NCBI RefSeq assembly: GCF_030531065.1
Contig: NZ_JAUNOQ010000004.1
Location: forward strand, 1 to 64,000
DNA: 64,000 nucleotides
Direction of reading: 5' to 3'
DNA from: Phascolarctobacterium sp.
GTDB lineage: Bacteria; Bacillota; Negativicutes; Acidaminococcales; Acidaminococcaceae
In this document: piece after piece, positions 99-48,732 of the stretch
Layout of the letters: each line of letters starts with the position of its first letter
Position numbering within the stretch: the stretch's first letter is position 1
Notes under the pieces: generated by a model
What the model saw: only the letters and a program-made list of their open reading frames with translations
Told to the model about the DNA's origin: nothing
The model's database searches: none
Translations under genes and position numbers: made by a program

Positions 99-2162
99 GT
101 GTTCAGATTAAAGTTTTTTATGTTAGGAGTGTCCATTTTCTTGGGTACAGTTTACATCTTCCAACGAAAGAAAAAAGACGAAGAAACAAAAACCTTCGTA
201 CTGAAAACAGGCGATTCCCTTGCTATTGTCAGCGACGCCTTTGAGGGCATAACAATTACTGCGATTTCTGCCAACACCGTCGAATTCTCTAATGGTGTGA
301 GTAAGACCTCCGGCGAAGAAATGGATGTTGATGTGTATATGTCCTCCTACCAGGAGCAGATGCTCAAGCTGGCTCTAGAGCGGCATTTTGAAACCGAGCG
401 GGAGAATTTCTGTAATCGCTTATTCAAAATCAAGACGCTGGCATTGTTCTTCATTGATGACATTTCTTCCTATCGTCCGGATAAAGAAGGGAAGACTCCT
501 TATCTGCTTACCGCATTTGAGCGGCTTCTGAGAGAACGAATTGAACTCACCATTTCCACGCTTACAGAGCATGATATGGAGTATCGTGCTTATCTGGAAG
601 CTTCACTTGCGGATATTTCCGCTTGCCATGCGGGCTATTTCTCACAGGATAATAGTGATTCTGATGAGGGAATTGCCAAAGAGGTAGATGCGATTCTCAA
701 CGGCAAAAAGCAATTGTTATCTTTCCTCAATGCAGATGGCACATACAACACCTTGCGGTTCCTATTCTCTAAGTGGACTCTTAAAGAGGGATGGGACAAC
801 CCTAATGTGTTTACGATCGCTAAATTACGTTCCAGCGGAAGCGAGAACAGCAAGCTACAGGAAGTTGGTAGAGGTCTGCGCCTGCCTGTAGACGAAAATG
901 GCAACCGTATCTCCAATGAGGAGTTTCAGTTGAACTACATCGTTGATTTCACTGAAGCGGACTTTGCGCAGCACTTGGTAGATCAAATTAACGGCGAAAT
1001 ACCGCAGACATCTGTTATTACCGAGGAACGGTTGGCTCAAGTGGCTCAGAAGCTCGGAATGAGTGCCGATGATCTGTTTGATGAACTGTACGATAAGCGC
1101 TATATTGACCGGCACAACAACATCCGTCCGGAAACAAGAACACCGTTCTTTGAAGAATACCCTGCATTTGCGTCTGGCTTGTCCGAGGGCAAGGTCAAAG
1201 ACAGAAACAAGATCAAACCTAAGCCAATCAAGATCCGCAAGGCGGTTTACAACGAAATGCGGGAATTCTGGGAGCGAATCAATCAGCGTTATATGCTGTT
1301 TTATGATGCCGATTTGGATACAGATATGGCAGAAGTCGCACTTTCTTTGCTTGAAAAGCCAGGCGTTTTCACGGACGTTGTAATGACAAGTAGCCGTGAT
1401 ATCGTTCATAGCGCTGGTACGCAAATGAGCACAACAACGGGTACGGGTGTGCAGTATACGATTATGCGTCCCATTCCATACGGCACATTTTTGACTCGTA
1501 TTATGCGCGTAACCAGTATTCCAATTGAAGTCCTTCATAAGGCAATGGTTGCTTACAGTAAAAGGCATGGAATGGTTGATGCCAAGTACATCAACGATAG
1601 TTCTGTAAGCGCATTCTGTGCCGAGTTCCAGAATTGGAAAGTTACTGAGTTACAGGGGCGCTTCCGTTATGTCAAGAGTAATATACCACGCGGTGCTACT
1701 GCATTGACATATGCTGACGGTACCCCAAGAGAAGAGATTGCCCAAGGCCGTATCAGCACCAAAATTGTTCCCGGGACGCCCAGTGACAAATATCTGTATG
1801 ATGTTTTTGCATACGACTCGCCGCTGGAAAAGGATAATATTACAGCAGACATCGAAGAAGTTGTTGTGTACGGAAAAATCCCACGTAGTAGCATTGCCAT
1901 TCCAACGATTACCGGCAGTATGTATAGCCCTGACTTTATGTATGTGGTAAAGAAAGTCTCTGGTGAGAAAGAACTCAACATTGTAGTTGAAACAAAAGAT
2001 GTTGAAGGCAAGGATATACTGAGAGGGACTGAAGCGGCCAAAATTAAATGTGCCCGTATATTCTTCGAGATTCTATCCAAAGAAGGATATATTGTCCATT
2101 TCCGAGATCAAATCAACAATAAACAGATGGCGCAAATCATTAATGAGGTTCTGCAAATGTAA
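99..2162 (+). pseudogene. Type III restriction enzyme Res subunit, 5'-truncated
   Basis: This is the C-terminal part of a type III restriction-modification Res subunit (ATP-dependent helicase/endonuclease). Visible are the late helicase motifs around residues 225-270 (FSKWTLKEGWDNP, then QEVGRGLRLP) and a C-terminal PD-(D/E)xK nuclease motif (SPDF followed by VVETKD, about residues 610-635). The ORF is 687 aa, whereas Res proteins are usually about 900-1,000 aa. The N-terminal helicase part with Walker A and Walker B is missing, and an in-frame TAA lies just upstream of the GTG at 99. The first 14 or so residues look like read-in sequence rather than Res. No Mod methyltransferase gene is in the window. 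The gene ends 23 bp before the next defence-type gene in the same direction. It is probably inactive as a restriction enzyme. Confidence 0.75.
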
Positions 2163-2185
2163 AACTCAAAGATAGGGGCGATAGA

Positions 2186-5100
2186 ATGAACTGGACAAAA
2201 TTTCAAACATATGGTATGTCACCAGAAAAGGCATTTGAAGAGTTGTGCAATCAATTGTTTGCTAACTGGTGCAAAGAGGAATACAAGTCTGCTATCGCCT
2301 CCATTCGTACTGTAAACGGAGCTGGTGGTGACGGCGGCGTAGAATCTTATGCTGTTTTGAAAGATGGATCCATCATTGGCTTGCAGGCAAAGTGGTTTCC
2401 AACAAGCATGACCAGTGGCCAGATCGCTCAAATCAAAAAGTCTATCAAAACAGCAAGAAAGGTACGCCCGGAAATCAGTCGATATATCGTATGTGTCCCC
2501 AGAGATTTGGCATCTAAGACGGCTCAGAGCGAGAATTCTGAAGGTACTCGCTGGGACAACATGATTACAAGCGTGGTTGCGGATTATCCAGATTTAGCTG
2601 TGGAGTTATGGAGCGAGTCAAGACTTGTTACTGAACTGCAAAAACCATCCTCATTTGGTATTTTTAAGTTTTGGTTTGAGAATGCTGAAGTGTCAGATGA
2701 AAGTGTGCGGTATGCTTTCGAAAAGGCAAAAAGTAGCTGGCTGACCACAAAGTATGTTCCGGAACTGAATACTTATGGAAATATAGCGCAAACAGTCTCT
2801 CTGCTTTTGGGTGAAATCGACCAGCGAGAGAAGCAGGTGAAAGTTTTCCAAAAGGTTCATGAGTTGTGTGAGAAATGCCTCTCTGCGGCTGAAGCGTTTT
2901 TGGCTGTCTGTGGTGATCGTCCGGAACTTACAGAAATTCTCATTGAAACAGTAGATAGGTTGAGTGCAGTAGAAGGTGAGTGCTTAAAAATCACTTCCTG
3001 GTACAGCGACGAAACGCCTTGCGATGACGATATTGATATTTCCACATTCAGCGTGGACTTCGCTTCAATTGCAGGTAGCATTAATAAAAGCAGGGACTCC
3101 ACGCTTCACCACTTCCATGCCTCTGATGTTACAAAGGTCTTACGGAAACTGGGCGAGTTTGATTTCTATGCATTGATCAAGGACTTTGAGCGGAGCCATC
3201 ATAAGAAAAGCCTGCTGTTTTTGGGTACACCTGGAACGGGTAAAACGCACGGAATTAGTGCGCTGTCAGAGAAACTCCTATCTGATGGGTTGCATATTCC
3301 TCTCTTAATTCAAGCCAGATATATCCCGACATCTTCAACTTGGAAGAATATCATATGCGATTATTTAGGCCTCTCTTCAAATTGGAATGAAGATGAAATC
3401 TGGCAGGCACTAATCTCCTTAGCTGATCGGCACCGTTTCCAAAAACAGCAACTTTCCTCTGAAACAAAGATCTCTCCTAAAGTGATTATATTTATTGATG
3501 GCCTTGACGAATCCTCTACACACGAAAAATGGGTTGAAAGGATTCAGGAAACAAATGCCATTACAGCCAGATACCCACAAATCAGGTTTTGCTTCACTGC
3601 ACGGCCAACCGCTTTTAAAGGGCGGATCGACTATGCAAAAGTAGAACGATTGAGTAATGTGGGAGATGTTCCCACGCACATGCTGTTTGACAGCTATATG
3701 CATGCTTATAATATCAAAACGCAAAATAACGGATGGCTTAAATCCTCCCTGACAACTCCGCTGGCATTAAAGTTATTCTGTGAGCTTAATCAAAACCAAT
3801 CGGTCAACCTTTCGAGCCGCACGGAAGTTTCTATGACAGCTCTGTGGTGCAAAAAAATTAAAAAGATTGAAAGCGAATATTGTGAAAAGGTTGGCCGCCC
3901 TGAAAAAAGTCAATATGTTTTAAGAGCAGTCGTTTTTCTGTCGAAGCAGTTCATTGGCACTGAACGGTTAGAGCATTCTTCTCTAGTGAATGATCTTGCA
4001 GTCGAACTTAAAATAACCACAGAGTGTTCAGAAAGTTTGGTTAACTATCTCGAAGAATATGGCATTTTAAGTTGCTACTGCAAGCACGGAACAGGCTTGG
4101 CTCCAGATACATATTTTTATTATCCGGGTATACAAGGATACTTCGATTATGCTTCTGCGTTGCACATTGCCTCCCTATATAAGCATCCGAAGGATATCGA
4201 TTTCAACGATTGTAAAGCAATCCAAACGAATACGCTGAACAGCTTGACAATAATCTCAATCCAAAACTATGGGTATCTATTGACAAAAAATCCAACGATT
4301 GATGTTGTAATGAATGATTGGTCTAGACAAGAACTATATTTTTTAGCTCTTCTACATGCCGACTATGACACTGCCGCGCAATTTAAAGGGCTAACTGTAG
4401 AGATTATGTCAGAGTGTGCTGATAGTCTAATTACAATTGCAAATCAACTCGTTTTGCCCTTGTCGCAAGATTGTGATCATCCATTGGGTGTTATACTTCT
4501 TGATGAGTTCTTAAATGGATTTGAGAAACCAGCACAGAGGGATATCCTTTGGTCGGTTCCCGGTTATCTTAGAAACTCTGCGGGCAAACGTTGGTATCAA
4601 AGTAAAACCTTCGAACTTGAAGGTGTAAACTACTTATTAGATGCCGAAGATAAACACAACGGCTGTCCAACCATTTATGCATGGGCGTTATCTTCGGTTA
4701 ATAACTCGCTCCGAAAATTATACCGTAATCGGCTAATGGAATGGGCTCGCTTGGTACCAGAAGAATTCTACAAACTATTTCTAAAATTTTCTTATGTCAA
4801 TGATCCTCAGATCAAAAGTGACCTGTTTTCTATTTTGATGTGTCTGATGTATGACGGTGCTAATCAGGAGCTCATAAAGACAGTAAGTAATTGGATTCTC
4901 GAAAATATTTTGCATCCTGAAAGAATCGATGACAACAGAGATATATCAGTCCGGTACTATTCTATTGCTATTATAAAGAAAGCTGTAATGCTTGGCATTT
5001 TAGATGAAAAATCAATTGCGACGTATATGCCTCCATACTCCGTTACTGGCAATCGCATTGCGTTGAACAAGGATGCTCTTAGTGGAACACGCATGAATGG

Positions 5101-6463
5101 GTATAGTGCAATCGACTATGATTTGTCGCGCTATGTACTGGTAGATCACATTGAGTATTACTTCAACAATTATTCGCAGAAAAGTGCAAAGCAATTTGAA
5201 AAGCTCGTTGATGCTATTAGCGTTGAGCAAACAGATTATACTGGAATGACAGTCGAAAATTTTATTATCTCTGCAGCGTATGCGTATATCCTTGAGATGG
5301 GATGGAATGAACAAGAGTTTCACTACTTCAATAAAGACAAGTCTGGAGAAAGAATCATTGATGGAGTAGATTACTCTATCCAAGGAACGCATTATCCAGC
5401 TACGCATGGAAGTCAAAGTTCAGTCATGACAGTGTGCGAAAAATATGTTTGGCAAGCTCGAAATGCAATCAGCGGGTTCCTCTGTGACCGACTATTATTT
5501 GGTGATGAAAATGTTCCAGTTACTGACTATGGCTTACTCGATGATTTTGTTATTCCAGCTCAAGAAACACGAATCATAAATCCAGATACCATTCCGGACG
5601 ATAGACCATGGCATATTCCTGAACCAGAAAATGTTATTTTAGAAGGTGCTCCTTCCAGTGCAAAAGATGTGATAACAAATGTGTCAGAGGCACCCATTCT
5701 TGATTGGGAAAAATGGATTTTCTTCAAAAATATTGATGACGCATACAAAGTAGATTCAGAAGATCTTGTTGCATTGCATATGTATTCTTGTTTTTACGGA
5801 AGTGCAGGAGTGAAAACCTGTCTGCTCATGAATAGCATCTTAGTTGATCAAAGCGATGTTCCGGCATTCATAGAAGCCATTGCAGAAAAAAGCCAGGATG
5901 ATGACCACGTAACAAATCCCACTAATTGGTATGGCAGCATTCATTCTTCTTGTTATATTACGCCGAAAGAAGTTTGCTGGTTTCCTTGGAAAACACGCTA
6001 TGATGCCTATAACACAGAAGAATTTCCGCAATTCGAACTGAAATCAGCTGTAGATGAATGTTGCTGCAATTCTCCTGAATATGGAGATGTTTACTTTTAC
6101 CTTCCGTCAGCACCAGTTAGGGATATTCTAAACATTGTTGATTCAGATGGATATTTATTTTTTGATAACTTGAGAAGGGTAATTGCAGAACACAATATTG
6201 CTGGAGAAAAATGGAGAACATACCAGAACTATATAATCGTGGATAGAGCCGTCCTCTTCGAAAGACTGCAACGCGCTGAGAAAAATCTGATTTGGATAAT
6301 GCGAGAGCACCGTATTAGAACGGGAATTTCACAAGAGAAATTCGGAAAGTTTTGCGCAGATCGAGTCAAAAGCTACATCGGATATTTTGATAGAAATAAG
6401 TTCACAGTGAAAGAGATGCATTCGAAGATTTGGAGTTCTGAATCCAAAGAGAAATCCCTGTGA
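2186..6463 (+). CDS. Mrr-like nuclease / STAND NTPase protein (Avs-like defence protein)
   Basis: A 1,425-aa multidomain protein. The N-terminal domain (about 1-130) has a PD-(D/E)xK/Mrr-type signature: GGDGGVESY with Asp at about 49, then GLQAKW with Gln67 and Lys69. A P-loop NTPase follows, with Walker A GTPGTGKT at about 347-354 and Walker B VIIFIDGLDES at about 433-443, in STAND/NACHT style. The remaining ~900 residues have no motif I recognise and look largely helical, as expected for a sensor region. Nuclease plus STAND plus long C-terminal sensor is the architecture of Avs (AVAST) antiphage proteins, which sense phage proteins and then cut DNA. Membership is inferred from domain order only. 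It follows a truncated type III Res gene and precedes an ISL3 insertion, typical of a defence island. Start ATG at 2186 has only a weak ribosome-binding site (gataggggcgataga). Confidence 0.7.
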   Translation: MNWTKFQTYGMSPEKAFEELCNQLFANWCKEEYKSAIASIRTVNGAGGDGGVESYAVLKDGSIIGLQAKWFPTSMTSGQIAQIKKSIKTARKVRPEISRYIVCVPRDLASKTAQSENSEGTRWDNMITSVVADYPDLAVELWSESRLVTELQKPSSFGIFKFWFENAEVSDESVRYAFEKAKSSWLTTKYVPELNTYGNIAQTVSLLLGEIDQREKQVKVFQKVHELCEKCLSAAEAFLAVCGDRPELTEILIETVDRLSAVEGECLKITSWYSDETPCDDDIDISTFSVDFASIAGSINKSRDSTLHHFHASDVTKVLRKLGEFDFYALIKDFERSHHKKSLLFLGTPGTGKTHGISALSEKLLSDGLHIPLLIQARYIPTSSTWKNIICDYLGLSSNWNEDEIWQALISLADRHRFQKQQLSSETKISPKVIIFIDGLDESSTHEKWVERIQETNAITARYPQIRFCFTARPTAFKGRIDYAKVERLSNVGDVPTHMLFDSYMHAYNIKTQNNGWLKSSLTTPLALKLFCELNQNQSVNLSSRTEVSMTALWCKKIKKIESEYCEKVGRPEKSQYVLRAVVFLSKQFIGTERLEHSSLVNDLAVELKITTECSESLVNYLEEYGILSCYCKHGTGLAPDTYFYYPGIQGYFDYASALHIASLYKHPKDIDFNDCKAIQTNTLNSLTIISIQNYGYLLTKNPTIDVVMNDWSRQELYFLALLHADYDTAAQFKGLTVEIMSECADSLITIANQLVLPLSQDCDHPLGVILLDEFLNGFEKPAQRDILWSVPGYLRNSAGKRWYQSKTFELEGVNYLLDAEDKHNGCPTIYAWALSSVNNSLRKLYRNRLMEWARLVPEEFYKLFLKFSYVNDPQIKSDLFSILMCLMYDGANQELIKTVSNWILENILHPERIDDNRDISVRYYSIAIIKKAVMLGILDEKSIATYMPPYSVTGNRIALNKDALSGTRMNGYSAIDYDLSRYVLVDHIEYYFNNYSQKSAKQFEKLVDAISVEQTDYTGMTVENFIISAAYAYILEMGWNEQEFHYFNKDKSGERIIDGVDYSIQGTHYPATHGSQSSVMTVCEKYVWQARNAISGFLCDRLLFGDENVPVTDYGLLDDFVIPAQETRIINPDTIPDDRPWHIPEPENVILEGAPSSAKDVITNVSEAPILDWEKWIFFKNIDDAYKVDSEDLVALHMYSCFYGSAGVKTCLLMNSILVDQSDVPAFIEAIAEKSQDDDHVTNPTNWYGSIHSSCYITPKEVCWFPWKTRYDAYNTEEFPQFELKSAVDECCCNSPEYGDVYFYLPSAPVRDILNIVDSDGYLFFDNLRRVIAEHNIAGEKWRTYQNYIIVDRAVLFERLQRAEKNLIWIMREHRIRTGISQEKFGKFCADRVKSYIGYFDRNKFTVKEMHSKIWSSESKEKSL

Positions 6464-6508: not shown

Positions 6509-6620
6509 GGGCCTTTGCCAAAAGCTGTGGTCGGCGCTCTAACGTTTGTGTGGTAGGCGCTTTTGCAATACTGTGGTTTTGCTTTGTCAGTTGTGTGGTT
6601 GCGCTTTTGCAAAGTCTGTG
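6509..6620. repeat. Subterminal TGTGGT repeat cluster of the ISL3 element
   Basis: Five copies of TGTGGT occur at roughly 20-30 bp spacing, most followed by GCGCTTTTGCAA or GCTTTGTCA. Three related copies lie in inverted orientation at the right end (8066-8100). Repeated subterminal motifs of this sort usually serve as transposase binding sites; that role is inferred. Confidence 0.5.
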
Positions 6621-6666
6621 GTCTATGCCAAAATCATCATTCGAGGAATTTGGCATAGACCATTTT
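6620..6666 (+). terminator. Hairpin terminator inside the ISL3 left end
   Basis: Perfect 13-bp arms GGTCTATGCCAAA / TTTGGCATAGACC (6620-6632 and 6649-6661) are followed on the plus strand by ATTTTTATTT. It would stop transcription coming from the upstream defence gene before it runs antisense into the transposase gene. Confidence 0.6.
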
Positions 6667-6669
6667 TAT

Positions 6670-7965
6670 TTATAAACTAAAAGTATCGTTTGGGTTTAGG
6701 CAGTACAGCAATCTGTTCCTTGTTCTCTTAAAATTTTTAAGGCCGTTAGCGTTAAAAATAATCTTTTCTATCAACCTGTTCTTAGATTCCATAAAGCTAT
6801 TATTTATTCGTCGCCCATTGATCACGGTAAAGGAATTTATAATCTCATCATGCCAATTTTTTAGTAAACTGTAAAATTCATCGAATTCCTCAATGCCGCT
6901 GTTTTCAAACATGGTTATAGCTTTATCAAGAGTTTGAGGAATAGTTTCCAAAGTTTCTTTAGTATTGAGATTTATATAATATTCTTTTAATTCATAAGCT
7001 GCTTTTAGGTCAGGAAAGTTTTCGAAAAGAATATCCCGAATATTTCTGTAATTTACATAGCGTCCAAGCTTCTTGTTATACCTGGGTTTATTGTCAAGAT
7101 ATTTATTGTGTTCAAACACATACTTGAATGTAGTCAACAGGTATTTATATGTTTCGCTTTCCGTGCTTCGGAGGCATCTCAGCCTGACTTTGCGGAAATC
7201 ATCAGTTAAGTGTTTCAATACATGAAAACTATCGGCACATACTTTAGCTTTAGGGAAAAATATATTGGCTACATCTCTGTAAATATCATACATATCGATC
7301 GATACGTATTCTACATTATCTAATTCAGAAATATTTTTATCTCTATCCATAGTTTTAATTTTAATTTCACTTAAATATTTAACTAGATAGGATTTCTTTC
7401 TGGACGGCAGTATATCTATCATTTCGCCGGTTAAAAAATCAAGGAAGAGACAGCAATATTTAGAACACTGGTCAGAGTTTGGTAGGTAATGTTCGTCAAT
7501 GGAAAGAACCTTGGGAAGAGTTTTTCTTTGAATATCTACATGCTTGTCAAACAAACGTAGGACCGTAGAGATAGATAAATTATAGCGCTTCGCAACTGAA
7601 GTATAGGTAGCTTCGCAATATTTCAGTTCTGTGAGGACGTTGAATTTTGTTTCAAAAGTCAACCGTTCGCTGGTATCAATAAAAGGGTTAGGCTCACAGA
7701 AAGATATTTCGCAATGTGGGCAGCGATATCTGCGTTGCTGGTAGTAGATTACACATGAACGGTTCGCAAGAGTAGAATGTGTGAGTTTTCTGGAATAATA
7801 ACCATGAACTTTTGTAGGAGATTTACAAGTAGGACACAGCATTAAAGTAGAGGTTAGTTTTACTTTGAGAATAATGGAGCCATCTTGTTGCACAGCAGAA
7901 GAAACACTTAATAAATCATTTGGCTTTACATTGAGAATTGTTGTGATAAAATCTTCGTAAGACAT
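6670..7965 (-). CDS. ISL3-family transposase
   Basis: 431 aa. The N-terminal zinc-finger region has two CxxC pairs (CPTCKS at about 44-49; CPHCE at about 82-86), followed by a helix-turn-helix-like stretch (TYTSVAKRYNLSISTVLRLF). The DDE catalytic core is recognisable: SIDEHY near 150, SIDMYD near 220 with CADSFHVLKHL shortly after, and FMESKNR near the C-terminus. Length and layout match full ISL3/Tnp transposases, and no frameshift is seen. It fills most of the element bounded by inverted repeats and reads leftward on the minus strand. Confidence 0.88.
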   Translation of the reverse strand: MSYEDFITTILNVKPNDLLSVSSAVQQDGSIILKVKLTSTLMLCPTCKSPTKVHGYYSRKLTHSTLANRSCVIYYQQRRYRCPHCEISFCEPNPFIDTSERLTFETKFNVLTELKYCEATYTSVAKRYNLSISTVLRLFDKHVDIQRKTLPKVLSIDEHYLPNSDQCSKYCCLFLDFLTGEMIDILPSRKKSYLVKYLSEIKIKTMDRDKNISELDNVEYVSIDMYDIYRDVANIFFPKAKVCADSFHVLKHLTDDFRKVRLRCLRSTESETYKYLLTTFKYVFEHNKYLDNKPRYNKKLGRYVNYRNIRDILFENFPDLKAAYELKEYYINLNTKETLETIPQTLDKAITMFENSGIEEFDEFYSLLKNWHDEIINSFTVINGRRINNSFMESKNRLIEKIIFNANGLKNFKRTRNRLLYCLNPNDTFSL

Positions 7966-8118
7966 TTTGTCTTAGCCTCCTTTTAAGTAGATAGTTATTT
8001 TGGGAACAATAACATTCTAAAGTATAGGAGGCTTTATTTATTTCGTAAATATTACATAAGTGCTAAACCACAGTAACTGACAAAGCGGAACCACACCACA
8101 GAAAATGGCAAAGTACCC

Positions 8119-8570
8119 AATTTTTAACAATCATGACCGCCCGTCAATCTGGCAGTTTGACACCAAGCTATAAATCCTTAATACTAGCCAGCACCTCAAG
8201 ACGCTGGCTTTTACTTTGTTCAAGCCAGACTGCGTTTTCCACTTTTACTGCCCCTGTCAGGGATGTTGGCAATCGACAAGTAAATGCATTAAAGCACAAT
8301 ATGAAAACAATAATAGATACAATAAAGGTCAAATGCCATGAAGAGTGACGTTCGCAAATCGAGAAATTATAAAATACTATAACGAAAAACAAATTAAGGA
8401 GAAACTAGGATGGCGCAGTCCTGTACAATACAAGCTTCACCTTTTAGCTGCAAAAAATATACGCAGTAACCTATTTATTGATTGCTGCGTATATTAAAAT
8501 CTAACTTGTGCAGTTACAGCACTGCTGATAGCCGTTTTACTTTTTACTTTTTGTGTTTTATGTTTTACTT
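8119..8570. other. Intergenic region right of the IS, no supported gene
   Basis: About 450 bp without a convincing gene. It begins with the right copy of the target duplication. Two hairpins stand out: a short one at 8188-8206 (CCAGC/GCTGG type) and a strong one at 8456-8495. Small open frames here lack ribosome-binding sites and are not reported. Confidence 0.4.
8456..8495. terminator. Bidirectional hairpin terminator
   Basis: Perfect 11-bp arms AATATACGCAG / CTGCGTATATT with an 18-base loop and an A-run (8452-8457) on the left side, giving U-runs for minus-strand transcripts. It lies downstream of the minus-strand gene at 8571-8876. Confidence 0.5.
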
Positions 8571-8876
8571 TTACAGCTTTTCCGCCATTCCCGGAGGCAT
8601 ACTCCATTCAACGCGCACGCCGGTTTTGCCCCACAGCCGCGTCAGGCTGGTTTTAAAGCTTTCCATGCTTTCCAAGGGCTGCAAGGTTTTGGTTACGAAA
8701 TCGCGGATGGTTTCTCCCTGCGGCAAGTCCAGGGTCAGCGGCGAGGCCAAAAATTTTTCCACCGCAGCCTTTGCTTCCGCTACCGGCAGGGTAACGGCCG
8801 CAGCCTTCGTCTCGTCGTTATATTCCACATAACCGTAATGACAGTTATAATTTAAAGTCACGCTAAATGTACTCAT
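8571..8876 (-). CDS. Hypothetical 101-aa protein
   Basis: I do not recognise this small acidic-to-neutral protein. It has no signal peptide or membrane segment. It starts MSTFSVTLNYN with alternating polar/apolar residues suggesting beta strands, then an Ala-rich helix-like middle (EAKAAVEKFLAS). Composition matches the neighbouring core genes, so it is likely native. A ribosome-binding site (AGGGGG about 7 bases upstream of the ATG) supports translation. It lies alone between the IS-bearing region and ppk1, on the same strand as ppk1. Confidence 0.55.
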   Translation of the reverse strand: MSTFSVTLNYNCHYGYVEYNDETKAAAVTLPVAEAKAAVEKFLASPLTLDLPQGETIRDFVTKTLQPLESMESFKTSLTRLWGKTGVRVEWSMPPGMAEKL

Positions 8877-44784: not shown

Positions 44785-47700
44785 TCAGATACCTACTCTG
44801 TGTAGTCCCTTGTAAACTGTACTTTGAATCTGTTCAAACAACTTTAACTCAGCGAATTGTTCAAAATTCTCTTGTAATGTTTTCGCTTGTGATGCAGGTC
44901 TATTGGCAAAAAATTTATTAGAGCATTTATTCAACAAAATATTATATATATAAACATTCTTAGATTTATTGATTTCCCATTTTTCCTCATAATATTTTAA
45001 TCTACTAACTGCCCTTTCTACATCAACCTTATCACTATTTTTATTAGCTATAATATTTTCATTAATTTCTATCTTGTCTACATTAGCAATGGCTTTCTTT
45101 AAATATACCACAGCATCGTTGGGTAATACTAATTGTGCAGCACAATAGAAGATTAACTGCTTGCCAGTAGTACCAGAAATATGCATAGGAAAACCATTAA
45201 CATAAAACAAAGAGTACTTCTTAATTTTAGGCAGAATAATTTTAGGCTCTATCATTTGGCAATAACAACTATAATACTCCATCAACTCTTCTCTAGAGTT
45301 ATCTGCTAAAATAATAGGAACTGCCTCAATAGTGCGTTGCAGCCTGCCTTTCTTATCTTTAGATTCCACTAATGCAAAATATGACGTAGCCAACGTATTA
45401 TACCCACCATATTTTTCCGTAGGTAAGTTTTGTTTTAATGGCCACTTATTAGCCGCTGCAGGAACAGGATTCTGATCAAAGTATTGTCCCTTGGCTTCAA
45501 TAGGCATCCGCGTAAATAAAATGTTATTTTTATTCATAAAATGCGTTACAGTAGCAATAGTACCTTGCTCCCCAGGAATCCACGCGCACTCTCCATCCCG
45601 CTCAATCGGCCAATTGTAGAACTTATCAGGATTAAGCGTATATTTAAAAGATGGGTTTTTAATATACAATAAAGGATTACGTGTAAACTTCAAATAATAT
45701 GCATTTCCTACCACAATATTTAGATAAGCATCCTTGGCATGGTGTAAATCATTTACATCACGGCATTTAATAAAATTATACCTCTGTCTAAAATCAGATA
45801 CATTACCTGCCTTACTAAATATTACCTTATCCTGACCAAAATATTTTTGTAAAATGCCAGCTACAGCCTTTGTAGACTGCCGAGTTTCCACCAATTGCCT
45901 ATTTATGAAACCTGCAAGCTCCTCATCCGTTAAAGGGCTTACACGAATAAGGCGCTCATACTTCTTTTGATTAATGAGACCTTTCTCATAAAGCTTTCCC
46001 CAAAAGCTATGCATCTTAGAACGAATGTCTTCTTTCAATGGATAATTATCGCTTTTGGCGCCATTAATATCTTTGCGTACCAAAACACGATTATCTATAC
46101 TATCATCCTTTGTCTTGGATTGTGGAAATATATGATCAATATCATATATATTGTTATTATAGAGTTCACTAATCTCAATCCGTTCACCAGTATACATGCA
46201 TTTGCCCAACTGAGTGTAGTATAGATACAATCTATCGCTGCGCAACTCTTCATCAGATTTTATTTCCAAGCTCTGCCTTAAATCAATATCATCTACTCTG
46301 GTTTGTTTATACAATTCTTTTAATCGATTTAAACGGCTTACTGTACGCTTGCTTTCTTGTTTTTCCTTAGCCATCTCAAGAAAGACCCGTTTAGGAGCAT
46401 ACCCAATTATTTTCTGTATTTCTTTAACAATAGATAGAGTTTGCCAGGTACTACGCTTCACAGCCGGAGAAACATATAAACTATCAATATCACTATAAAA
46501 TATATTGCTTGGTTCTCCTGTATACTGCTTATTGAATTCAATAATTCGCTCGTTAAACCCATAAATACAACTACTACTTAACAGTTCCATAAAGTTTTTA
46601 TTGGTATGCCTCATCGCACTTATAATAGTAATAACTTCTCCAGTACTATCGTCAACAAAAGATACTTTATCACTGTTAAGCAATGTAGCTGATAACCTTC
46701 CCCAATCTTTGTATTTCAATTTCTTAATTTCTCTTAATTCGTTCTGAGAAATGTCGGGGTATTCCTTTTGAATTTTTTTAACCAACATTGGCGTTTCATC
46801 ACAGAAAAGCGTTATCCAACGAATAATATTTTCAATCTGCTCACGATGAAGTTCAACATATTTCACGCCAAAAATCCTACAAAAATCTTTGTATGGCTTC
46901 AAATTTGAATGAATGAAATCATCAATACCACCTATATCATTACAACGAATTCCCAGAGTAAGTAAAAAATCTTTTATCTTCTTCTTTGTAATCTTAGCAT
47001 TGCCTTTCGATACTGCTATATAATCATATAGTTTATTGATAAACTCACTAGGCAATCGTTCACCATCAACAGAAAGATTATTCAATTCATTTCGTAGCAT
47101 AAATTCAGTATATAATAAAGAATTCTTAGGCAACACATCTTCGCCAATAAGATAAGTACATTTGGCAGTCATATTGGTAATAAATTTTTCCGCACTCGCT
47201 TCTAAATCTACAACCTTTGTAAAATTCCAAGGGTAAATCTTCTCCTTATCTCTTACAACCCAGCAACGACCTAATTTTTTAGATTTTTCAGTTCCCGCCA
47301 ACGGTCCAACATAGTATGGAACTCTGAACTTAAAAATACTTTTAATTTTATCACTAATACTATATCCTTCATCATCTATTTTATTCAAGAACGGTAAATA
47401 CTTAGAAGCATGCTCTAATATCACCTCTAATTCTGCCATATTAACTTGGTAAGGAATAATACTATTCTCTTTAGTTGTCTGTTTAGGAAAAGCCAGTCCA
47501 TTATTAACTCTAAACAACAGCTTATCCTCAGCACTCTGAGCTTGCTCAATACTGGCTAACTTTTGCATTCGGCTCTTATAAGTTGGTTTAAATTCAAGAG
47601 TTTTTTTAACAATCTTGCAAAATTCTTCGTTTGTTTGCGATTTAGCTCCAGAAATATAATGTGCATATGTTCCCTCGCCATCTTTTCTGAAGATTTGATT

Positions 47701-48732
47701 ATACTGGTCCGTACCTTTCAACATAGCCTTTAAAGTCGCCAAATCTTCAGCATGCTGATTATATATGGCAACCTTACTGCTTGAAATTAAGCCAAATTCT
47801 TTCTCTTGATTAAGATTACCACCTAAAATTTTGGCTAATACACTCCAATCATACACTGATTTAAGTAATAAAACAGCTTCAAACCTTTCTCCTAATGCAG
47901 TTTCTATAATAGAGCTTATTGCGTCAAAATCATCTTCCTTAAAGCTAAAGCTATTTTTTTCACATTCATTTAGCTCATCTCCAAATAGGTCGCTGAGCTT
48001 ACCTTTACCGCCACTTAGAAAAGTAATAATCGCTTTCTGTTTTTTATTATCACTCGGCAATAATCTTTCCATGGCTTTCTTCTTGGCAGTAATGGACAAT
48101 GTATTATCACTCAAAATATCTTTCAAATCATCCTCGCTCTGAGTAGTCCAATCAGCAATTTCTAACTCATCCTGAATATAGGCTTCTAATAAATCAAAAA
48201 CACTTCTAAAATCAGAAATTTTCTTGGCATCCAGCCCAGAAAACAAGAAATGCCCTCTATGCTTAATAATATGCTGAACCGCAAGGTATACCAATCTTAC
48301 GTCAAATGGACCTTCTTGTGTAGCTAACGCATTGCGCAAATGATACATAGTTGGATAATCTTTATGAAAATCAACGTCAGTATATTTACTATCGGCAAAA
48401 AGACTGTATTTTACATTTGTTTCTTTGTCACATAATTGTAATCTGCTTTCCCTAATACGCATAAAAAAGCCTAGATCAATCTTAGAGATTTCAGGAGAAA
48501 AGAGTTCTTGAAGCATATTAACGCGCCATTTAACTCGTTCCAAACGACGGCGTTGTGTCCTGAATGATCTTGTTTGCTCTGCAGTCTTAGCCTCTTCAAA
48601 CAGCCTTATACCCCACATAGCTTTGCCGTTAAATTTTAGCACATTATAATTAGTATCCGTTACTGCCCAGCCAACAGAACTTGTACCCATATCAAGTCCC
48701 AAAAACCATTCTCCAAAATTTGTTTTTCCCAT
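44785..48732 (-). CDS. cas9: Cas9 nuclease, type II-A, C-terminally truncated by the element
   Basis: 1,315 aa as encoded now: residues 1-1303 are Cas9, the last 12 come from the element. RuvC-I FLGLDMGTSSVGWAV (about 10-24), Arg-rich bridge helix RTQRRRLERVKWRVNMLQELF (about 58-78), RuvC-II RVFLEMAKEKQ (Glu near 786), HNH YDIDHIFPQS ... DDSIDNRVLV (His near 864) and RuvC-III HHAKDAYLN (near 997) are intact, so both nuclease sites remain. The lost 62 residues (38132-38320) are the end of the PAM-interacting domain, where S. pyogenes Cas9 has Arg1333/Arg1335. Without them PAM recognition and folding are likely impaired. AAGGAGG 8 bases before the ATG. AT-rich. Confidence 0.95.
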   Translation of the reverse strand: MGKTNFGEWFLGLDMGTSSVGWAVTDTNYNVLKFNGKAMWGIRLFEEAKTAEQTRSFRTQRRRLERVKWRVNMLQELFSPEISKIDLGFFMRIRESRLQLCDKETNVKYSLFADSKYTDVDFHKDYPTMYHLRNALATQEGPFDVRLVYLAVQHIIKHRGHFLFSGLDAKKISDFRSVFDLLEAYIQDELEIADWTTQSEDDLKDILSDNTLSITAKKKAMERLLPSDNKKQKAIITFLSGGKGKLSDLFGDELNECEKNSFSFKEDDFDAISSIIETALGERFEAVLLLKSVYDWSVLAKILGGNLNQEKEFGLISSSKVAIYNQHAEDLATLKAMLKGTDQYNQIFRKDGEGTYAHYISGAKSQTNEEFCKIVKKTLEFKPTYKSRMQKLASIEQAQSAEDKLLFRVNNGLAFPKQTTKENSIIPYQVNMAELEVILEHASKYLPFLNKIDDEGYSISDKIKSIFKFRVPYYVGPLAGTEKSKKLGRCWVVRDKEKIYPWNFTKVVDLEASAEKFITNMTAKCTYLIGEDVLPKNSLLYTEFMLRNELNNLSVDGERLPSEFINKLYDYIAVSKGNAKITKKKIKDFLLTLGIRCNDIGGIDDFIHSNLKPYKDFCRIFGVKYVELHREQIENIIRWITLFCDETPMLVKKIQKEYPDISQNELREIKKLKYKDWGRLSATLLNSDKVSFVDDSTGEVITIISAMRHTNKNFMELLSSSCIYGFNERIIEFNKQYTGEPSNIFYSDIDSLYVSPAVKRSTWQTLSIVKEIQKIIGYAPKRVFLEMAKEKQESKRTVSRLNRLKELYKQTRVDDIDLRQSLEIKSDEELRSDRLYLYYTQLGKCMYTGERIEISELYNNNIYDIDHIFPQSKTKDDSIDNRVLVRKDINGAKSDNYPLKEDIRSKMHSFWGKLYEKGLINQKKYERLIRVSPLTDEELAGFINRQLVETRQSTKAVAGILQKYFGQDKVIFSKAGNVSDFRQRYNFIKCRDVNDLHHAKDAYLNIVVGNAYYLKFTRNPLLYIKNPSFKYTLNPDKFYNWPIERDGECAWIPGEQGTIATVTHFMNKNNILFTRMPIEAKGQYFDQNPVPAAANKWPLKQNLPTEKYGGYNTLATSYFALVESKDKKGRLQRTIEAVPIILADNSREELMEYYSCYCQMIEPKIILPKIKKYSLFYVNGFPMHISGTTGKQLIFYCAAQLVLPNDAVVYLKKAIANVDKIEINENIIANKNSDKVDVERAVSRLKYYEEKWEINKSKNVYIYNILLNKCSNKFFANRPASQAKTLQENFEQFAELKLFEQIQSTVYKGLHRVGI
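44800..44823 (-). repeat. Right terminal inverted repeat of the element (attR, inner arm)
   Basis: Reads (minus strand) AGTACAGTTTACAAGGGACT followed by ACAC, the partner of 38323-38346. On this strand it is translated as the foreign tail of the truncated Cas9. Confidence 0.85.

Follow-up and report, generated by a model that had tools for sequence, protein, structure and literature searches.

A putative Avs2-type immune receptor of a divergent branch, encoded beside a truncated type III restriction gene in Phascolarctobacterium

Results

The res-avs locus and its surroundings

The analysed window spans the initial 64 kb of contig C2 in a Phascolarctobacterium genome (2.37 Mb in 27 contigs), and its base 1 is the end of that contig. 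The following features were identified at the locus:

1-158, strand not given: remnants of insertion sequences (IS) at the contig end (nucleotide matches elsewhere in the assembly)
159-2162, plus strand: 5'-truncated type III restriction enzyme, Res (profile matches; comparison with an intact Res)
2186-6463, plus strand: Avs2-type Mrr-STAND protein of 1,425 residues (open reading frame; PADLOC; profile comparisons; AF2 model)
2186-2770, plus strand: Mrr/PD-(D/E)xK-type nuclease region, residues 1-195 (motifs; Avs4 profile match)
3188-3784, plus strand: STAND NTPase core, about residues 335-533 (motifs; Pfam; AF2 model)
3785-6463, plus strand: helical middle and C-terminal Avs2-type sensor, residues 534-1425 (hhalign; AF2 model)
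6572-8095, unstranded: ISL3-family insertion sequence (transposase and terminal inverted repeats)

The open reading frame at 99-2162 (plus strand, 687 residues) is homologous to type III Res, covering the profile from position ~305 through its last position (NF012027, E=6.4e-237; PADLOC REase_III, E=1.3e-162). Its first ~20 codons are non-Res, and Res homology begins at about window position 159. Compared with the intact Res of Thomasclavelia (989 residues, 70% identical), the remnant has no counterpart of residues 1-319, a stretch that includes the DEPH helicase motif at position 223, and carries an IS end in their place, which bears out the truncation reported in the preliminary description. 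The endonuclease domain (PF19778) is retained, but the set of helicase motifs required of a functional type III restriction enzyme is incomplete.

The truncation is real, IS-linked and present in the sequence rather than a mere effect of the contig edge, because the IS end at 101-157 recurs, 96-98% identical, on two other contigs (at the end of C23 and the start of C14) and Res homology starts directly after it. Positions 25-87 are similar to C4:177392-177454. A search of the whole assembly found no further pieces of the truncated Res, and since the other half of the gene is thus absent from the assembly, insertion plus deletion is favoured over insertion alone, on a contig whose end lies 158 bases before the junction. 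The same contig end curtails the view of the Mod partner; mod-like genes elsewhere in the genome are no more than 53% identical to the Mod of Thomasclavelia. Several such genes occur (on contigs C10, C4, C9 and C1 of G000), with Res-like helicase reading frames close by. The upstream part of the probable res-avs transcription unit was lost to the IS.

On the 3' side of the Avs2-type gene lies the ISL3-family element, with its transposase on the minus strand (6670-7965) and terminal inverted repeats at 6572-6592 and 8075-8095, then a gene of 101 codons (8571-8876, minus strand), and then ppk. In a sister species (G036) the 101-codon gene and ppk are direct, convergent neighbours and the island is absent, so the res-avs block was probably inserted at a variable site. 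Part of the 101-codon gene, its 3' part, is duplicated near the end of contig C21 (G000:C21:235668-235781; 92% identical over 38 residues); this copy and the convergent arrangement in the sister species suggest that a rearrangement may have accompanied the arrival of the island. A possible IS3-type transposase remnant was noticed by eye at ~8310-8440, on the far side of the block, which would then be flanked by IS sequences there as it is at 1-157. A promoter scan of the region returned 27 candidates against 22.6 expected, which is chance level, and we therefore claim no promoter for the Avs2-type gene.

Domain organization of the 1,425-residue protein

The reading frame at 2186-6463 starts with ATG and runs through 1,425 codons without an internal stop, as had been described, so that an intact STAND gene stands beside a broken restriction gene. 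It places an effector, a STAND NTPase and a C-terminal sensor within one polypeptide. A scan of GTDB species yielded 28 loci, from which we aligned the query with 20 full-length relatives (21 sequences). The N-terminal region carries the nuclease motifs E18, GGD49GGVE53 and Q67xK69, and E18, D49, E53, Q67 and K69 are invariant in all 21 sequences; Asp49 and Lys69 had already been singled out in the preliminary description. Pfam Mrr_cat did not reach the E 0.01 threshold at the N terminus, so the nuclease call rests on these motifs and on a profile match to the N terminus of EcAvs4 (PDB 8dgf, E=0.0023).

The STAND core contains a Walker A motif (G347xxGxGKT354), a Walker B motif (IDGLDE, with D438, D441 and E442) and R473. 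The Walker residues are invariant in the alignment except D438, which is found in 20 of the 21 sequences. Pfam NPHP3_N scores above its cut-off in this region, and the NTPase is NACHT-like. The sensor closes with a mixed alpha/beta part that begins near residue 1193, and its conserved residues include H1074, G1075, S1078, E1085-K1086-Y1087 and W1089.

Classification within the Avs2 group

Motifs, PADLOC and hhalign agree with the earlier reading of an Mrr nuclease joined to a STAND P-loop and an Avs-like sensor, and they name Avs2 as the specific relative. The PADLOC Avs2 model matched residues 1-954 (E=1.8e-64), five Avs2 models matched in total, and none of the PADLOC models for Avs1, 3, 4 or 5 matched at E<=1; Avs2 models also matched all 21 aligned full-length sequences. 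Among solved structures, the best match in an alignment-profile search was the Avs2 structure 9o4e (E=4.1e-37 over residues 186-994). In hhalign, the protein was colinear with Avs2 proteins over residues 2-1388 (probability 100, E=9.8e-85). The comparison set held six Avs2-like proteins from the phylum, and four of the six (L040, L041, L043 and L045) scored above the cut-off of the NCBI Avs2 model; the Avs2 proteins from the phylum search carry an equivalent D...E...QAK pattern. The sensor, in which the preliminary description recognised no motif, aligns with Avs2 sensors even when the C-terminal 446 residues are compared alone (probability 97.5, E=5.7e-12).

In the sensor, the protein shares about 19-20% identity with Avs2 proteins. 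The NCBIfam equivalog NF041813 gave 60.1 bits against the database threshold of 1000 bits, and on this score the protein is filed as a divergent sister branch and not as Avs2 in the sense of NCBI. A fair statement is that it belongs to the Avs2 group as a divergent branch and is no new kind of system.

The AF2 model (pLDDT 86.5, pTM 0.79) covers residues 231-1425, with the N-terminal nuclease fold lying outside it; a sensor model that AF2 built from the single sequence (pLDDT 35.6) was discarded. The best PDB match of the model in Foldseek was Avs3 bound to terminase (SeAvs3, 8dgc; E=2e-7; VIA Z 14.0), so that the comparison with Avs proteins called for earlier places Avs2 first by sequence and Avs3 first by fold. 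The Avs2 structure 9o4e was not among the VIA and Foldseek matches; it may be absent from that library, and we draw no conclusion from its absence among the matches.

With Avs2, as represented by NF041813, the PADLOC models and 9o4e, the Phascolarctobacterium protein shares the single-gene plan, the D...E...QxK nuclease, the STAND module, the helical middle and the C-terminal sensor, but at about 20% identity and from a separate clade. The likeness to Avs3 concerns residues 231-1425; the target chain is longer (about 2,000 residues), and the Avs3 models of PADLOC and NCBIfam gave no match. Avs4 has the Mrr-type N terminus in common and a comparable STAND module (VIA Z 9.9), whereas the STAND-sensor body did not match the Avs4 models of PADLOC or NCBIfam at E<=1. 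Next after Avs3 in VIA came the animal receptors NLRP3 and NOD2 (Z about 13-14 over model residues ~100-590), which share the NACHT-type NTPase architecture and differ in effector and sensor, a relationship of fold only.

Relatives and distribution

The 20 full-length relatives are 23-52% identical to the query and come from Clostridia, Veillonella, Thomasclavelia, Paenibacillus, Collinsella, Flavobacterium, Nostoc and others. Near the host, close homologues are rare and sporadic: of 63 genomes in the order 1 has one, and of 341 in the class 5 do, the nearest within the class being from Veillonella (47%). In the tree, the query clade, mostly Bacillota, is split from the Avs2 proteins of the comparison with 100/100 support, and the neighbour of the query is Thomasclavelia, not Veillonella; Nostoc and Flavobacterium form long branches whose own placement is unsure. 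Together with the GC content of the gene (40.5%, against about 50% for most of the window), this neighbour fits horizontal transfer.

No relative was found in phage records. The sole match among viral_contigs (L074) has the same reading-frame layout and query match as the Lachnospiraceae locus L057; it is thus no independent evidence of phage carriage, and we rejected it as such.

Several relatives are broken: Veillonella ratti L053:6001-10278, with an in-frame TAG, as well as L061, L072, L073 and L038:4873-6885. The damage takes the form of an in-frame TAG, splits, an internal deletion or a C-terminal sensor part standing alone. This breakage suggests that the gene is frequently lost.

Proposed function and ligand

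The domain anatomy, the invariant catalytic and P-loop residues, the full-length Avs2 homology, the defence neighbourhoods and the sporadic distribution lead us to regard 2186-6463 as very probably a single-gene Avs2-type anti-phage receptor that would act by sensor-triggered DNA cleavage. In an uninfected cell the receptor would be held off. On infection, its C-terminal sensor is expected to bind a conserved tailed-phage protein, with the terminase large subunit as the likeliest candidate, whereupon the ATP-bound STAND module would oligomerise (a tetramer in Avs-family structures) and bring the N-terminal Mrr-type nuclease domains together; these would then cleave DNA without specificity, which would halt phage growth and kill the cell. 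Ligand class, oligomerisation, cleavage and abortive outcome are proposed here by analogy with the family.

According to PMC12931631 and PMC12724215, which summarise the field, Avs1-3 sense terminase and Avs4 senses portal, and by this analogy terminase would be the likeliest ligand. It cannot be assumed, given the low identity of the sensor to those of Avs2. A tentative alternative, which we hold to be possible though rather unlikely, is that the Bacillota-centred clade has shifted its sensor to the portal or another early phage protein while keeping the same nuclease output. Divergence is greatest in the C-terminal part (about 19% identity), and the tree sets the branch well apart (100/100); a protein of Alcaligenes faecalis called Avs2 is reported to be triggered by the lambda portal (PMC13141931), and Klebsiella Avs2 additionally senses Ksap1 (PMC12724215). 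Against such a shift, the sensor is still colinear with Avs2 sensors, and Avs1-3 are terminase sensors (PMC12724215).

We consider it improbable that the Avs2-type gene is decaying beside a broken restriction system and has lost its expression or function. The neighbouring Res is truncated, IS elements or remnants lie on both sides, and several relatives are broken; nevertheless, the reading frame is full length and every catalytic residue is retained, a ribosome-binding-like sequence precedes its ATG, and a dN of 0.42 with saturated dS against the three relatives tested points to long-term purifying selection.

The neighbours of the relatives comprise type III mod-res, type IV REase, type II R-M, type IIG, Nhi/SIR2-type, PLD-helicase and PDC-S46 genes. 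A regulatory or accessory role for the STAND protein within a type III R-M system, with no defence of its own, is highly implausible: Thomasclavelia (L049) has the same res-avs order, with an intact mod-res pair, but other relatives adjoin entirely different defence genes or none, and Avs2 acts as a single gene in the published systems of the AVAST literature.

The receptor reading favoured here does not extend to the suggestion that the STAND system is likely the active defence of the locus, which goes too far, intactness not being activity. Cas9, the product of a type II CRISPR-Cas gene, is likewise encoded in the window (44785-48732, minus strand; 1,315 residues; TIGR01865, E=1.5e-265), and the genome has several mod-like and Res-like genes besides; with Cas9 38 kb away, the Avs2-type gene cannot be called the active defence and is one of several.

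Implications

These results extend the Avs2-type immune receptors to Negativicutes and related anaerobes of the gut, and delineate a branch, missed by the NCBI Avs2 model, that comprises about 20 full-length relatives. They leave the current understanding of the Avs mechanism unchanged. The conserved sensor residues make ligand-binding tests straightforward, and if the sensor has indeed shifted away from terminase, this would constitute a new ligand specificity within the Avs2-like receptors of anaerobic gut bacteria.
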